Assembly: GCF_022179805.1 (NCBI RefSeq)
Contig: NZ_BPUO01000013.1
Span: 62,001 to 126,000 of the forward strand
Direction of reading: 5' to 3'
Source of the DNA: Cupriavidus pauculus
GTDB lineage: Bacteria > Pseudomonadota > Gammaproteobacteria > Burkholderiales > Burkholderiaceae
DNA length: 64,000 nt
The translations under genes and the position numbers were made by a program. The notes under the pieces were generated by a model. It ran no database searches, was not told the DNA's origin, and saw only the letters and a program-made list of their open reading frames with translations. Positions 2,993-56,465 of this stretch are shown piece by piece. Position 1 is the stretch's first letter; each line of letters opens with the position of its first letter.

Positions 2993-3107
2993 GAAAACGC
3001 TACCAAAACGATACTGGCATCGTTGTGCGGCCTTGCCGTACCATTCGTATTGTCGCCGGCCCGCATGCCTGTACAGAACTGGCGTGCCTCGTTCTGGTAG
3101 CGTTTTC
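2993..3107 (+). repeat. 13-bp perfect inverted repeat with 89-nt spacer upstream of obgE
   Basis: GAAAACGCTACCA at 2993-3005 pairs perfectly with TGGTAGCGTTTTC at 3095-3107. A smaller hairpin, AACGAT/ATCGTT at 3007-3024, is nested just inside the left arm. The structure fills most of the rpmA-obgE gap and ends 40 nt before the obgE start. Confidence 0.7.
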
Positions 3108-4291: not shown

Positions 4292-5410
4292 ATGCAATCG
4301 GTCATCGCCCAGGCAAAGCGTATCGTCGTCAAAGTAGGTTCGAGCCTGGTTACCAACGACGGCAAGGGGCTGGATCACGACGCCATCGCGCGCTGGGCGG
4401 CGCAGATCGCCAAGCTGCGTGGCGCTGGCAAGGAAGTGGTGCTGGTCAGCTCCGGCGCCATTGCCGAAGGCATGCAGCGCCTGGGCTGGGCGCGCCGTCC
4501 GAAGGAAATCCACGAATTGCAGGCGGCGGCGGCCGTGGGCCAGATGGGTCTGGCGCAAGTCTACGAAAGCCAGTTTGGCCGCTATGGCATCCGCACCGCG
4601 CAGGTGCTGCTGACCCACGCCGACCTGGCTGACCGCGAGCGCTACCTCAATGCGCGCTCGACCTTGCTGACGCTACTGTCGCTGGGCGTGGTGCCGATCA
4701 TCAATGAGAACGACACGGTGGTCACCGATGAAATCAAGTTCGGTGATAACGATACGCTGGGCGCGCTGGTCACGAACCTGATCGAAGGCGATGCCCTGGT
4801 GATCCTGACCGACCAGCGTGGCCTGTACACGGCAGACCCGCGCAAGGACCCTGCCGCCGAATTCGTGCACGACGCGCTGGCGGGTACGCCGGAGCTGGAA
4901 GCCATGGCGGGTGGCGCGGGCTCGTCGATCGGGCGCGGCGGCATGCTGACGAAGATCCTGGCGGCCAAGCGCGCGGCCAAGTCGGGCGCCCATACGACGA
5001 TCGCGTCGGGCCGCGAGCAGGATGTGCTGGGCCGGCTGGCGGCCGGCGAGGCGATCGGCACGCAGTTGCTGGCGCCCACGGGCCGGCTGACCGCCCGCAA
5101 GCAATGGATGGCCGACCACCTGCAACTGCGCGGCCGCGTGGTGATCGACGCCGGCGCCGTGGAAAAGCTGACGGGGGGCGGCAAGTCGCTGCTGCCGATC
5201 GGCGTGACGGAAGTGCAGGGCGAGTTTGCGCGCGGGGAAGTGATTGCCTGCGTCGACAACGCCGGCCACGAGGTGGCGCGCGGCATCACCAACTATTCCA
5301 GCGCCGAAGCCAGGTTGATCGCGCGCAAGCCGTCATCGGAAATCGAATCGGTGCTGGGCCATCTGAACGAGCCCGAACTGATTCACCGCGACAACCTCGT
5401 ACTGATCTGA
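4292..5410 (+). CDS. proB: Glutamate 5-kinase
   Basis: The 372-residue enzyme phosphorylates glutamate, the first step of proline synthesis. The N-terminal amino-acid kinase domain begins [13 protein letters not shown] and includes [18 protein letters not shown] and the glycine-rich GRGGMLTKI. The C-terminal ~100 residues, after [10 protein letters not shown], form the PUA domain found in long-form ProB. ProB is usually feedback-inhibited by proline. It lies 46 nt behind obgE, an arrangement common in Burkholderiaceae, with GGAGACAGG upstream of the ATG. A terminator follows at 5451. Confidence 0.97.
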
Positions 5411-18850: not shown

Positions 18851-19222
18851 GGATTTTCACGGATGTTGCGCGGACGCCGCACATTGCCCCCGTTCGATTG
18901 AAACGCCCCGAAGTGGCGCCGGCAAAACCTTGCTGCCCCAAGGGTGTCATCGTCCTGAAAAATTGCCGTGCAGTTACGTGTAAGTCGCCTCGTTTCGGCG
19001 CAATGGCGGCTACAATCGCGCCCCCAATGGTTGCAACCACGCCCCATCCTGGGTCACCTATCGATGATCCATTTCCATTAAAAAATTTTCGATTTTTTGT
19101 GCGCCACCGAACGTGACGCCGCCAAGCCTTGAGGCAGCGCGCTTTGCGGGAATGTGGCGCTGCCGCACTGGCGGCCTCAGCCCGGCCAGCGCGCTTGTCA
19201 AGACTGGTCATTGCGGCTCGTT

Positions 19223-19269
19223 TCACTATACTTAGCCCAGTTTTGAAACGGCACCACTAGATATAGTGG
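19223..19269 (+). promoter_or_regulatory. Two NrdR boxes overlapping the nrdA promoter
   Basis: Box 1 is TCACTATACTTAGCCC (19223-19238) and box 2 is CCACTAGATATAGTGG (19254-19269). Both fit the NrdR consensus acaCwAtATaTwGtgt, box 2 with nearly perfect symmetry, and they are exactly 31 bp apart, the phased spacing known for NrdR. Box 1 contains a TATACT -10 hexamer (19227-19232), so NrdR bound with ATP/dATP would block nrdA transcription. Confidence 0.85.
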
Positions 19270-19360
19270 TTTCACCGGGGAGCCGGCCCACAGGTGCAGC
19301 GGGCGTCGTGGCGGTAAGCGGCGCCGGGTGCATATCAGCAGTGGGGCGGAGCAGTACCAA

Positions 19361-19457
19361 AAAGTCCCTAGCAAAAAGTGTCCATACGAGCAGTTGGGTT
19401 CGCATCCGGCCTGGCCGGAATCGAGTGTCTTCTGAGGCGCATTTTGCTAGGGACTTT
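19361..19457 (+). promoter_or_regulatory. Structured nrdA 5' leader with 16-bp stem
   Basis: AAAGTCCCTAGCAAAA (19361-19376) pairs perfectly with TTTTGCTAGGGACTTT (19442-19457), closing a 65-nt loop. Inside the loop is a second hairpin, TCCGGCC/GGCCGGA. The element sits between the NrdR-controlled promoter and the nrdA start, which is 59 nt further on. There is no T-run after the right arm, so it is not a simple terminator. No riboswitch class was recognised. Confidence 0.6.
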
Positions 19458-19516
19458 GTTGTCTTCATAAAACACAGAAGAAGTATTCATCACAGGGTTA
19501 ATACCGGAGTTACCTC

Positions 19517-22459
19517 ATGCAAACGGCCCAAAACGAACAACAAACCACCGGCGTGACTGGCGCAACGGGCATTGCTGGCGCAGCAGCCGGCACGCAGAGC
19601 CCTGCCGCTGCAGGCGTTTCGTATCAGGACTACAAGCTGATCCGTCGCAACGGCTCCGTGGTGGCGTTCGAGCCGAACAAGATTGCCGTGGCCGTGACCA
19701 AGGCCTTCCTGGCCGTCAACGGTGGCCAGGGCGCAGCGTCCGCGCGTGTGCGCGAGCTGGTCGAGCAACTGACCCAACTGGTGGTGCGCGCGCTGGTGCG
19801 CAGCCGCCCGAACGGCGGCACGTTCCATATCGAGGACGTGCAGGATCACGTGGAACTGGCGCTGATGCGCTCGGGCGAACATGAGGTTGCCCGTGCCTAC
19901 GTGCTGTACCGCGAGAAGCGCACGCAGGAGCGCGCCCAGGCAAACGCCCAGGCCGTGGCCCGCGTGCAGCAGTCCGGCGTGTCGGTCAACGTGACCGACA
20001 ACGGCGCCGTGCGCGCGCTGGACCTGGTGGCCCTGCATGCACTGATCGACAACGCCTGCAGCGGTCTGGGCGACGCGGTCAGCGCCGAGCCGATCCTGAA
20101 GGAAACGCTGAAGAACCTGTACGACGGCGTGCCGATGTCGCAGGTCTACGACTCGGCCATCCTGGCCGCGCGTACGCTGATCGAGAAGGACCCGGCCTAC
20201 AGCCAGGTAACCGCTCGTATCCTGCTGCACACGATCCGCAAGGAAATCCTGGGCGCCGAAGTGACCCAGACCGAAATGTCGACGAAGTACGCCGAGTACT
20301 TCCCGAAGTTCATCGCCCGCGGTATCGAAGCCGAACTGCTGGACGAAAAGCTGGCCACGTACGACCTGGCCCGCCTGGGCGCCGCGCTGGACGCATCGCG
20401 CGACTTCCAGTTCAACTACCTGGGCCTGCAGACGCTGTACGACCGCTACTTCCTGCATGTGGACGAAGTGCGCATCGAAATGCCGCAGGCGTTCTTCATG
20501 CGCGTGGCCATGGGCCTGGCGCTGGAAGAAGCTGACCGCGAAGCCCGCGCCATCGAGTTCTACCAGCTGCTGTCGTCGTTCGACTTCATGTCGTCCACGC
20601 CGACGCTGTTCAACTCGGGCACGCGCCGCTCGCAGCTGTCGTCGTGCTACCTGACCACGGTTTCCGATGACCTGGAAGGCATCTACGAAGCCCTGAAGGA
20701 AAACGCGCTGCTGTCGAAGTTTGCCGGCGGCCTGGGCAACGACTGGACCAACGTGCGCGCGCTGGGTTCGCACATCAAGGGCACCAACGGCAAGAGCCAG
20801 GGTGTGGTGCCGTTCCTGAAGGTGGTGAACGACACGGCCGTGGCCGTGAACCAGGGCGGCAAGCGCAAGGGCGCGGTGTGCGCGTACCTGGAGACGTGGC
20901 ACCTGGACATCGAGGAATTCCTGGAGCTGCGCAAGAACACCGGCGACGACCGTCGCCGCACGCACGACATGAACACGGCCAACTGGATTCCGGACCTGTT
21001 CATGAAGCGCGTGATGGAAGCCGGCGAATGGACGCTGTTCTCGCCGGCCACCTGCCCGGACCTGCACGACAAGGTGGGCAAGGCCTTCGAGACCGCCTAC
21101 CTGGGCTACGAAGCCAAGGCCGCCAACGGCGAGCTGAAGCTGTTCAAGAAGGTGCCGGCGCTGCAACTGTGGCGCAAGATGCTGGGCATGCTGTTCGAAA
21201 CCGGCCATCCGTGGATCACGTTCAAGGACCCGTGCAACATCCGCAGCCCGCAGCAGCACGTGGGCGTGGTGCATAGCTCGAACCTGTGCACGGAAATCAC
21301 GCTGAACACGAACGAAAGCGAAATCGCCGTGTGCAACCTGGGTTCGGTGAACCTGGTGGCCCACCTGAAACAGCAGGCCGACGGCACGCACGTGCTGGAC
21401 CACGCCAAGCTGCAGAAGACGATCCGCACCGCGATGCGCATGCTCGACAACGTGATCGACATCAACTACTACGCGGTGGAGAAGGCGCGCAATTCGAACC
21501 TGCGTCACCGTCCGGTGGGCATGGGCATCATGGGCTTCCAGGACTGCCTGCACGTGCTGCGTACCCCGTACGCCAGCGACGCCGCGGTGAAGTTCGCCGA
21601 TACGTCGATGGAAGCGGTGTGCTACTACGCCTACCACGCGTCGACCGAGCTGGCTGAAGAGCGCGGCCGCTACAGCACGTATGAAGGTTCGCTGTGGGAC
21701 CGTGGCATCCTGCCGCAGGACTCGCTGAAGCTGCTCGCCGAAGAGCGCGGTGGCTACCTGGAAGTGGATTCGTCGTCGACGATGGACTGGGATTCGCTGC
21801 GTGGACGTATCAAGCAGCACGGCATGCGCAATTCGAACTGCATCGCGATCGCTCCGACCGCGACCATTTCGAACATCATCGGCGTGTCCGCCTGCATCGA
21901 GCCGACGTTCCAGAACCTGTACGTGAAGTCGAACCTGTCGGGCGAATTCACGGTGGTGAACGACTACCTGGTACGCGACCTGAAGGACCGCGGCCTGTGG
22001 GACGAGGTGATGGTTGCCGACCTGAAGTACTTCGATGGTTCGCTGGCCCGCATCGACCGCATCCCGCACGACCTGCGCGACATCTACGCCACAGCGTTCG
22101 AAGTGGAACCGACGTGGCTGGTGGAAGCCGCCAGCCGCCGCCAGAAGTGGATCGACCAGGCGCAATCGCTGAACATCTACATGGCCGGCGCCTCGGGCAA
22201 GAAGCTGGACGACACGTACAAGCTGGCCTGGCTGCGCGGCCTGAAGACGACGTACTACCTGCGCACGATCGCCGCCACCCACGTGGAGAAGTCCACGGTG
22301 TCGCGCGGTTCGCTGAATGCGGTGTCGTCGGGTGCCGACGGCCAGTCGGGCATCGACGCGGCCGCTGCATCGGCCCCGGCCATGCCGGAAGCCGAAGGCG
22401 CGGTTTGCACGATGCGTCCGGGTGACCCCGGTTTCGACGAGTGCGAAGCCTGCCAGTAA
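19517..22459 (+). CDS. nrdA: Class Ia ribonucleoside-diphosphate reductase, alpha subunit
   Basis: The 980-residue protein reduces ribonucleoside diphosphates to deoxy forms together with NrdB. The N-terminus carries an ATP-cone (YKLIRRNGSVVAFEPNKI, residues ~35-140) for dATP control, followed by a region resembling a second, diverged cone (~160-250). The barrel includes SSCYLTTVSDD, LCTEITLNTN and MRNSNCIAIAPTATIS. The C-terminal tail DECEACQ supplies the redox-active CxxC pair. It is longer than E. coli NrdA (761 aa) and similar to the long pseudomonad/betaproteobacterial form. It is controlled by the NrdR boxes and structured leader upstream; nrdB follows after 130 nt. Confidence 0.96.
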   Translation: MQTAQNEQQTTGVTGATGIAGAAAGTQSPAAAGVSYQDYKLIRRNGSVVAFEPNKIAVAVTKAFLAVNGGQGAASARVRELVEQLTQLVVRALVRSRPNGGTFHIEDVQDHVELALMRSGEHEVARAYVLYREKRTQERAQANAQAVARVQQSGVSVNVTDNGAVRALDLVALHALIDNACSGLGDAVSAEPILKETLKNLYDGVPMSQVYDSAILAARTLIEKDPAYSQVTARILLHTIRKEILGAEVTQTEMSTKYAEYFPKFIARGIEAELLDEKLATYDLARLGAALDASRDFQFNYLGLQTLYDRYFLHVDEVRIEMPQAFFMRVAMGLALEEADREARAIEFYQLLSSFDFMSSTPTLFNSGTRRSQLSSCYLTTVSDDLEGIYEALKENALLSKFAGGLGNDWTNVRALGSHIKGTNGKSQGVVPFLKVVNDTAVAVNQGGKRKGAVCAYLETWHLDIEEFLELRKNTGDDRRRTHDMNTANWIPDLFMKRVMEAGEWTLFSPATCPDLHDKVGKAFETAYLGYEAKAANGELKLFKKVPALQLWRKMLGMLFETGHPWITFKDPCNIRSPQQHVGVVHSSNLCTEITLNTNESEIAVCNLGSVNLVAHLKQQADGTHVLDHAKLQKTIRTAMRMLDNVIDINYYAVEKARNSNLRHRPVGMGIMGFQDCLHVLRTPYASDAAVKFADTSMEAVCYYAYHASTELAEERGRYSTYEGSLWDRGILPQDSLKLLAEERGGYLEVDSSSTMDWDSLRGRIKQHGMRNSNCIAIAPTATISNIIGVSACIEPTFQNLYVKSNLSGEFTVVNDYLVRDLKDRGLWDEVMVADLKYFDGSLARIDRIPHDLRDIYATAFEVEPTWLVEAASRRQKWIDQAQSLNIYMAGASGKKLDDTYKLAWLRGLKTTYYLRTIAATHVEKSTVSRGSLNAVSSGADGQSGIDAAAASAPAMPEAEGAVCTMRPGDPGFDECEACQ

Positions 22460-22484
22460 CTGATTGAATCACCCCTGGTCTGCT

Positions 22485-22512
22485 CCCCTCTCCCGCTCAG
22501 GCGGGAGAGGGG
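22485..22512. repeat. Palindromic repeat, copy 1 (between nrdA and nrdB)
   Basis: A 12-bp perfect stem CCCCTCTCCCGC/GCGGGAGAGGGG with loop TCAG, followed by a purine-rich tract. The same stem sequence occurs at 56403-56429. No T-run follows, so it resembles a dispersed REP-type palindrome more than a terminator. Confidence 0.7.
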
Positions 22513-22589
22513 CCGGGGGAGAGGGCAGGGCGCACGCGCTGAAGTGCAACCGCCGAGCCGCCCCTAAACGAATTTCCGGAGAACACAAC

Positions 22590-23780
22590 ATGCTGAGCTG
22601 GGACGACGACGTTCAAGCCACGCCGCAAGCTGCACCGCAGCCTGCCCTGCAACCCGCCGCGTCGGCCTCCACGGTCGACCAGCAAGGCGTACTGCCGCCG
22701 TCCGCCACGGCACCGTCGGGCATCCTCGGCAACAATCCGAACGCCGCCGCCGCGCAAAGCACCCGCCGCGTGAACGCCGCCGACAAGCGCGTGATCAACG
22801 GCGCCACCGACGTGAACCAGCTGGTGCCGTTCAAGTACAAGTGGGCGTGGGAAAAGTACCTGGCCGGTTGCGCCAACCACTGGATGCCGCAGGAAATCAA
22901 CATGTCGCGTGACATCGCCCTGTGGAAGGACCCGAACGGTCTGACCGAGGACGAGCGCCGCGTCATCAAGCGCAACCTGGGCTTCTTCGTGACGGCCGAC
23001 TCGCTGGCCGCCAACAACATCGTGCTGGGCACCTACCGCCAGATCACGGCGCCGGAATGCCGCCAGTACCTGCTGCGCCAGGCGTTTGAAGAGGCTATTC
23101 ACACGCACGCCTATCAGTACATCGTGGAATCGCTCGGCCTGGATGAAGCCGAGATCTTCAACGCGTACCACGAAGTGCAGTCGATCCGTGACAAGGACGA
23201 GTTCCTGATCCCGTTCATCGACACGCTGACCGATCCGTCGTTCAAGACCGGCACGCCGGAAAACGACCAGAAGCTGCTGAAGAGCCTGATCGTCTTCGCC
23301 TGCATCATGGAAGGCCTGTTCTTCTACGTGGGCTTCACGCAGATCCTGGCGATGGGCCGCCAGAACAAGATGACCGGTGCCGCCGAGCAGTACCAGTACA
23401 TCCTGCGCGACGAATCGCTGCACTGCAATTTCGGCATCGACCTGATCAACCAGATCAAGCTCGAGAATCCGCACCTGTGGACGCCGGAATTCAAGGCCGA
23501 GATCACCGATCTGTTCAAGAAGGCCGTGGACCTGGAATACCGCTACGCCGAAGACACCATGCCGCGCGGCGTGCTGGGTCTGAACGCGCCGATGTTCAAG
23601 GGCTACCTGCGCTACATCTGCAACCGCCGCTGCCAGCAGATCGGCCTGGAGCAGCTGTTCCCGAACGAGGAAAACCCGTTCCCGTGGATGAGCGAGATGA
23701 TCGACCTGAAGAAGGAACGCAACTTCTTCGAAACGCGTGTGATCGAGTACCAGACCGGCGGCGCGCTGTCGTGGGACTGA
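22590..23780 (+). CDS. nrdB: Class Ia ribonucleoside-diphosphate reductase, beta subunit
   Basis: The 396-residue radical-generating subunit starts [13 protein letters not shown] behind a TTTCCGGAGAA ribosome binding site. After an Ala/Pro-rich N-terminal ~60 residues comes the ferritin-like di-iron domain, with ligand helices [36 protein letters not shown] and [11 protein letters not shown]. The C-terminal tail [17 protein letters not shown] is the NrdA-docking peptide. A longer in-frame start would run through the palindromic repeat and is rejected. A strong hairpin follows at 23874. Confidence 0.96.
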
Positions 23781-23873: not shown

Positions 23874-23912
23874 AACGGCCATCGGGTGAGAGCCCGATGG
23901 CCGTTGTTCTTT
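23874..23912 (+). terminator. Rho-independent terminator after nrdB
   Basis: A 13-bp perfect stem AACGGCCATCGGG/CCCGATGGCCGTT with a 6-nt loop, followed by the T-rich tract GTTCTTTT. It lies 94 nt after the nrdB stop. Confidence 0.8.
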
Positions 23913-23962
23913 TGGGGCGGGATATGGTGAATGCGGCCTTTTTTGTCGAGGCCGAGACTATG

Positions 23963-24018
23963 CGATCGCACGGTTTTTGGTCGAAAGCGGCTGATTTTGA
24001 TGCTAAACCGTGCGATCG
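23963..24018. repeat. 14-bp perfect inverted repeat downstream of a Bug gene
   Basis: CGATCGCACGGTTT (23963-23976) pairs with AAACCGTGCGATCG (24005-24018) across a 28-nt spacer. It lies 35 nt after the stop of the leftward Bug gene and could stabilise the 3' end of that transcript. No T-run follows on either strand. Confidence 0.6.
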
Positions 24019-24052
24019 ACGAGTTTCGCCCCAACGCCTCCCAACCCCAACC

Positions 24053-56370: not shown

Positions 56371-56395
56371 TCTTCAGAGTCTCTGGGTTTTCTGG

Positions 56396-56436
56396 ATTTT
56401 CTCCCCTCTCCCGCAAGGCGGGAGAGGGGAGAAAAT
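56396..56436. repeat. Palindromic repeat, copy 2 (between mtgA and corA)
   Basis: A 19-bp perfect stem with a 3-nt loop (AAG): arms 56396-56414 (ATTTTCTCCCCTCTCCCGC) and 56418-56436. Its inner 12 bp are identical to the stem at 22485-22512. It separates convergent genes and may act as a bidirectional terminator, but the T/A order is opposite to an intrinsic terminator. Confidence 0.8.
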
Positions 56437-56465
56437 CAAAGGCAAACCAAGGGGACTTCAACCCC

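Follow-up and report, generated by a model that had tools for sequence, protein, structure and literature searches.

A conserved long-range stem in the nrdA leader of Cupriavidus, a probable cis-acting RNA

Main

The nrdA leader of Cupriavidus contains a long-range stem, P1, that is very probably a functional cis-acting RNA: both arms were recognized in 57 of 59 leaders of the genus, and the element shows the two marks of a cis-acting structured RNA, covariation and a fixed genetic context. Because of its position, its tail and what some related genera carry at the same place, we tentatively read P1 as an attenuator-type hairpin, a partial intrinsic terminator or pause at which some transcripts may end before nrdA. 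A conserved RNA between the promoter and nrdA would add a control step within one round of transcription, and P1 gives directly testable constructs for tractable hosts in the laboratory.

In the accessible portions of two papers, control of ribonucleotide reductase (RNR) genes in these bacteria is attributed to the repressor NrdR (PMC2864759, PMC5343134). We found no nrdA leader RNA of Burkholderiaceae in the titles and abstract openings of the open-licence literature; the accessible portions of PMC2864571, PMC2864759, PMC5688073, PMC7563307, PMC9045368, PMC3766115 and PMC5343134 mention none, and the search terms for such an RNA are absent from PMC8632094. P1 is an undescribed structured leader of a biosynthetic gene, of a kind that is not itself categorically new.

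Layout and fold of the leader

The window, the whole 64-kb stretch of DNA analysed, carries an nrdA–nrdB operon on its + strand (Table 1), in which the second reading frame is one that we take to be nrdB from operon order and sequence. Upstream of nrdA lies a sigma-70-like promoter, from which we infer a transcript start at about 19238–19240 and a leader of about 277 nt; CTATACTT recurs in 59/59 Cupriavidus nrdA upstream regions. P1 lies between this promoter and the nrdA ATG and so should be transcribed. Two palindromes resemble the NrdR-box motif and are taken as putative NrdR boxes.

Table 1 Features of the nrdA–nrdB region, in window coordinates
Feature	Position	Strand	Basis or detail
Sigma-70-type promoter TGGTCA-16-TATACT	19205–19232	+	9/12 matches; 0.2 sites expected in shuffles
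NrdR-box-like site 1	19221–19237	+	Sequence; mean column identity 0.97 (57 leaders)
NrdR-box-like site 2, around CACTAGATATAGTG	19254–19270	+	Sequence; mean column identity 0.93 (57 leaders)
Upstream helix P0, CCGGCCCAC (19283–19291) with GTGGGGCGG (19341–19349)	19283–19349	+	Leader fold; 8/9 paired, interior variable
P1 stem, 5′ arm	19361–19376	+	Repeat search, fold and alignment; extends outward to 19356
P1 interior (65 nt), internal loop and apical hairpin 19405–19410/19414–19419	19377–19441	+	Fold
GCAGU, 5′ side of internal loop	19390–19394	+	Identity 0.96 (57 leaders)
P1 stem, 3′ arm	19442–19457	+	Repeat search, fold and alignment; extends outward to 19462
U-rich tail TTTGTTGTCTTC, directly after GGGAC	19455–19466	+	Tail score; column identity of 19458–19466, 0.71
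Shine-Dalgarno GGAG of nrdA	19506–19509	+	Sequence
nrdA, class Ia ribonucleotide reductase large subunit, 980 aa	19517–22459	+	ATG at 19517; name from the sequence-only reading
Open reading frame taken to be nrdB	22464–23780	+	Reading-frame list
Hairpin after the putative nrdB, tail TTGTTCTTTTGG; yardstick	23876–23903	+	Tail score

An earlier sequence-only reading had placed a perfect 16-bp stem with a 65-nt loop here, and the two P1 arms indeed form a perfect 16-bp inverted repeat, which reaches 21 nt at 90% complementarity when extended outward with mismatches. The inner hairpin of that reading is present too, but not with its seven base pairs: TCCGGCC.GGCCGGA would leave a 1-nt loop, and the fold gives 6 bp and a 3-nt loop at the apex. 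The fold of 19350–19470 reached −48.2 kcal/mol (z −4.73; as good in 0/200 shuffles), and over the 57 elements of the genus, window included, the median fold z was −5.8, with every element below −2. Perfect inverted 16-bp matches no more than 160 nt apart numbered 6 in the window, whereas none of 5 dinucleotide-shuffled versions contained any; one of the six presumably comes from P1 and five from a 20-bp repeat at 56395–56437.

A second, GC-rich helix, P0, just 5′ of P1, seems on a rough test to be part of the same leader. An automatic, noisy search returned a P0-type helix in 42/59 relatives (hand count), chose another helix in 16/59, the window among them, and found none in 1/59. Its arms differ in a paired manner among relatives (GCCGGCC/GGCCGGC, GCCGACCT/GGGTCGGC, GCTGGCC/GGCTGGC), and its interior has a low column identity (0.58, 57 leaders).

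Conservation and covariation

Among 60 sampled Cupriavidus genomes, nrdA was found in 59 (G011 gave no nrdA match), and the upstream DNA was taken for all of these (loci L038–L096). Two loci with missing arms, L068 and L093, were excluded before the counts over 57 leaders: L093 (G001) has no recognizable P1 arms, and in L068 (from G047, whose assembly shows 6% contamination) nrdA is present but the 3′ arm is missing. Relative to close relatives, a deletion of about 29 nt takes out the 3′ arm alone in L068; an assembly fault is also possible.

For a covariance model, R1, we used 20 of the 28 dereplicated elements, and a search with it recovered all eight that had been omitted (L053, L054, L056, L075, L081, L082, L089 and L094). 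R1 matched 57/59 Cupriavidus nrdA leaders in the sense direction, window included (E 3.6e-30 to 0.064); antisense matches were shadows of the palindrome. Against 398 genomes of the family it matched 54, comprising 52 Cupriavidus and two weak matches in genus g20, both away from nrdA, with 7 further Cupriavidus genomes unmatched in this search, whose stricter filters drop weak matches. No match was obtained at 14 loci of other genera. At the sequence level, the P1 leader is confined to Cupriavidus, where the element occupies one place per genome, at nrdA. A dispersed repeat was rejected, as the element has a single place in its own genome and the remaining matches were short and chance-level.

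The outer eight P1 pairs were intact in 455/456 cells (57 sequences). Mapped onto a FastTree phylogeny of nrdA coding DNA with 44 tips carrying the element, they showed four double and five single pairing-keeping changes against one break, one of the double changes being reconstruction-dependent. The tree evidence is limited to these eight pairs; bulges put pairs 6–15 out of register in several clades. The alignment of 20 sequences has 97.4% of its cells paired, compared with a shuffle mean of 93.7 (0/500 as high) and 34–55% for slid structures, and 26 of its cells are changed on both sides, where shuffles average 8.4 (0/500 as high). Two further counts from this alignment were not outstanding: pairs with both sides changed (4 versus 2.2, reached in 37/500 shuffles) and further pair types (7 versus 9.5, reached in 500/500); 13/19 pairs are invariant. 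At two inner pairs the two largest clades differ as A-U versus G-C, and in the basilensis-like and gilardii-like clades the inner stem has been rebuilt with bulges.

Column identities over the 57 leaders were 0.87 and 0.90 for the P1 arms, 0.96 for GCGC immediately 5′ of the 3′ arm and low, 0.58, for the apical columns. Inside the stem, strong sequence conservation is limited to GCAGU and to the bases that adjoin the 3′ arm. By its own terms the sequence-only reading would have been refuted by a stem that relatives do not conserve; such a loss was sought and did not appear.

An Rfam scan of the window leader returned no match at the gathering score and a single chance-level match on the opposite strand (E 2.9); scans of 18 related loci likewise gave no match within their nrdA leaders. 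A known RNA family or riboswitch was rejected on the lack of an Rfam covariance-model match in the window leader, which agrees with the initial description of an unclassified leader without a recognizable riboswitch core. Near the nrd operon at L135, far from the nrdA leader, positions 5236–5336 match the Rfam Burkholderia sRNA candidate Bp1_684.

The U-rich tail and the attenuator reading

Intrinsic-terminator attenuators control biosynthetic operons such as pyrBI. Like them, P1 is a U-tailed hairpin between a promoter and a first gene; unlike them, it has a much longer stem, a 65-nt loop and an interrupted U tract, and neither a conserved leader peptide nor an antiterminator was found. In the proposed mechanism, P1 would close over the U-rich tract as soon as RNA polymerase has transcribed the 3′ arm, and a fraction of transcripts would stop about 50–60 nt short of the nrdA start, which would reduce nrdAB output at a step after NrdR repression. 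Because of its large interior P1 would close slowly, so that termination would be incomplete. We propose no antiterminator because none was found: pairing of the 5′ arm with the upstream or downstream leader, and of the 3′ arm with the upstream leader, was no better than in shuffles (mean z 0.24, −0.22 and 0.33, respectively). Loss of the 3′ arm with retention of nrdA in G047 is as expected of a dispensable brake.

The sequence-only reading had denied P1 a terminator T-run. The tract does contain G and C among its U's, and its conservation is only moderate (0.71), but the tail TTTGTTGTCTTC is U-rich, with a score of 3.6 where the yardstick hairpin beyond nrdB has 3.27, in a single comparison. 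Few positions of a leader score as high as its tail (median 1.9%, maximum 5.2%; 57 leaders), and T occurs at least five times in the first eight tail positions in 51/57 (hand count), with variants such as TTTGTCG, TCTTTTGTCTC and TCTTTGTC after the GC-rich stem. The U's also have pairing partners in the A-rich 5′ flank, and this could by itself account for their retention.

At its base the window stem, GUCCC/GGGAC, is GC-rich directly before the tail, as in a terminator, whereas its 65-nt, partly structured loop is far beyond the 3–8 nt of the standard form. Because 65 nt separate the arms, we do not class P1 with the standard terminators. A standard terminator scan of the window leader did not call P1 and called only a small in-loop hairpin at 19425–19440 with tail ATTTTGCTAG (1 found versus 0.3 expected). 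In named Cupriavidus leaders, short-loop terminator hairpins were at chance level (1/14 versus 0.9 expected) because the hairpin of this genus is not of the short-loop kind.

Alternative explanations

Translational control, which the sequence-only reading had also raised, is a possible but less than likely account of P1. In this model the 3′ arm would be an anti-Shine-Dalgarno sequence sequestered while P1 is folded; occupation of the 5′ arm by a factor or ribosome would free it to pair with the Shine-Dalgarno (SD) sequence, and nrdA translation would fall. When the 5′ arm was blocked in silico, SD openness decreased by a mean of 0.24, compared with 0.01 for random blocks; the drop exceeded random blocks in 26/29 leaders run (of 57), with the SD then mostly paired with the 3′ arm, and of 55 leaders, 28 lost more than 0.2 in openness and none gained that much. 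The 3′ arm is also the best anti-SD 12-mer of the leader in 24/57 and within the top 5% in 29/57. However, an SD pairs with any pyrimidine-rich stretch, blocking the 3′ arm instead barely shifted SD openness (−0.04), and P1, which no factor is known to open, is at a mean arm–arm energy of −27 kcal/mol far more stable than the alternative pairing (about −9 in the best clades). In the window itself the anti-SD is weak (rank 0.265, −6.3 kcal/mol; 0.137–0.327 among the clade relatives listed). The near-perfect long duplex (16–21 bp), kept by pairing around a variable apex and with no competing structure found upstream, would also suit a hairpin that sets mRNA half-life without switching, either by giving RNase III a double-stranded cleavage site or by shielding the message from RNase E; we consider this unlikely, as stability alone does not explain why the outer arms and GCAGU are conserved in sequence, or why the tail is U-rich.

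The function of the gene makes a nucleotide ligand attractive, and GCAGU is a short conserved motif within an internal loop that could bind a nucleotide or deoxynucleotide while P1 acts as the switching helix. Structured RNR leaders of this type exist, in the 2′-deoxyguanosine riboswitches near Mesoplasma RNR genes and the cobalamin riboswitches of RNR operons, but P1 differs from them in having no Rfam match apart from the chance-level one on the opposite strand. The nucleotide sensing suggested by the sequence-only reading is improbable: a basal stem of 16–20 bp looks too stable for ordinary ligand switching, the apex is variable, the pairing search returned no partner for the 5′ arm and none upstream for the 3′ arm, and the conserved core is tiny, with the model finding none at nrdA outside one genus. 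Control of the hairpin by a ribosome translating a leader peptide, as in pyrBI or trp, is very improbable. An ATG or GTG frame of at least 8 codons crosses the U tract in 25/57 leaders, but start, frame and peptide vary even among close relatives, few starts have an SD, and at least 13 leaders have an ATG in the 5′ arm followed by TAA after three codons (hand reading); with no conserved short frame through the hairpin in 57 leaders, a leader peptide in Cupriavidus is largely refuted. Just as improbable is an inverted repeat acting as DNA, either a protein operator or a mobile-element relic with no role in RNA. Proteins can bind inverted repeats, but here the half-sites change jointly and keep their complementarity across 65 nt, and the element has one place per genome and a fixed position in the leader.

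nrdA leaders of other genera

The Ralstonia (g24) nrdA leader is strongly conserved (16/16 alike) and, at the same gene and place as in Cupriavidus, has a long-range stem, GCGCCACGCGGGG/CTCCGCGTAGCGC, around two hairpins. The segments GGCAG..TCTTTTCC..CATTTC look similar in the two genera, whereas the Ralstonia stem, unlike P1, is followed by no U tract, which counts against the attenuator reading. R1 gave no match at 10 Ralstonia loci. A Ralstonia model, R2, matched 16 of 299 genomes, all Ralstonia and no Cupriavidus at E 0.01; against 24 Cupriavidus loci it matched one element only (E about 1), worse than three matches elsewhere. A family-wide homologue was not found, R1 at nrdA being confined to Cupriavidus (398 genomes) and R2 to Ralstonia (299). 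In Ralstonia (L158–L173), a 5′ hairpin, AATCCCGG/CCGGGATT, encloses NrdR-like box 2.

In the related genus g4, represented by one genome (L129), the part of the leader that holds P1 in Cupriavidus carries a hairpin, GCCGCCC/GGGCGGC-TTTT, that differs from P1 in being compact (9 bp, 4-nt loop); its presence there favours the attenuator reading. Its flank before the SD, AACACTGGTCA, is as in Cupriavidus L089.

Genus g10, called Pandoraea because the leader of Pandoraea iniqua has the same hairpin, was represented by 20 loci; L196–L198 have another leader, L199 escaped the search pattern, and the remaining loci reduced to 14 distinct sequences (alignment A4: L200–L207 and L209–L214, for example L204:2550–2697). 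This leader spans 148 nt at a mean column identity of 95%, ends in a terminator-like hairpin, GCGCCC/GGGCGC-ATTTTT, and had no Rfam match at the two loci scanned. One 148-mer was present as a single copy in 3/7 genomes and absent from 4/7. The Pandoraea leader is possibly a stronger RNA candidate than Cupriavidus P1.

Terminator-like hairpins were found in 21/28 Paraburkholderia nrdA leaders: 12 had a CCGGCTCAGCCGG-CCTTTTT-like hairpin with a U run, placed at about −112, and the other 9 had only a weaker one at about −75 (hand count). Tail scores in Paraburkholderia (1.4) and Pandoraea (2.2) were poorer than that of the window (3.6), which speaks against the attenuator reading. Such hairpins occurred in 28/80 named nrdA upstream regions (4.3 expected) and in 13/30 others, 29 of the family and one of another (1.6 expected; the start codon of L153 was misassigned), an excess that speaks for the attenuator reading; related species are counted many times in these figures, and species within a genus are not independent. 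Ralstonia (2/6, 0.9 expected) and Polynucleobacter (0/8) were at chance level in the scan of named leaders. At L142, L145 and L149 (Paraburkholderia and allies), SD-preceded frames starting ATGATCGCG or GTGATCGCG cross the terminator-like hairpin and are possible candidate leader peptides; some putative frames in Paraburkholderia-type leaders have similar ends.

That Cupriavidus, Ralstonia and Pandoraea each carry a different conserved leader at nrdA suggests that control of dNTP supply through RNA may be common in the family. A broader proposal, which we regard as doubtful, is that class Ia RNR of Burkholderiaceae has a second, RNA-level control layer below NrdR, rebuilt by several genera with their own structured leaders (Cupriavidus P1, the Ralstonia junction, the near-invariant Pandoraea leader and the Paraburkholderia hairpins), the Cupriavidus version being a factor-free kinetic attenuator. 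Speculatively, the slow-closing, long-loop stem would win only when RNA polymerase is slowed, and nucleotide supply would thereby set the amount of nrdAB.

Other features of the window

A repeat search with a seed of 13 returned four inverted repeats of at least 15 nt within 150 nt in the window. Repeats elsewhere in the window include a perfect 20-bp inverted repeat with a 3-nt loop at 56395–56437 (GATTTTCTCCCCTCTCCCGC), a 19-nt inverted repeat at 2993–3107 (95% complementary, 77 nt apart) and, downstream of nrdB at 23950–24031, a 27-nt inverted repeat (81% complementary, 28 nt apart). On the − strand, positions 1173–1323 match the Group II intron RNA domain RF02012 at 115 bits.
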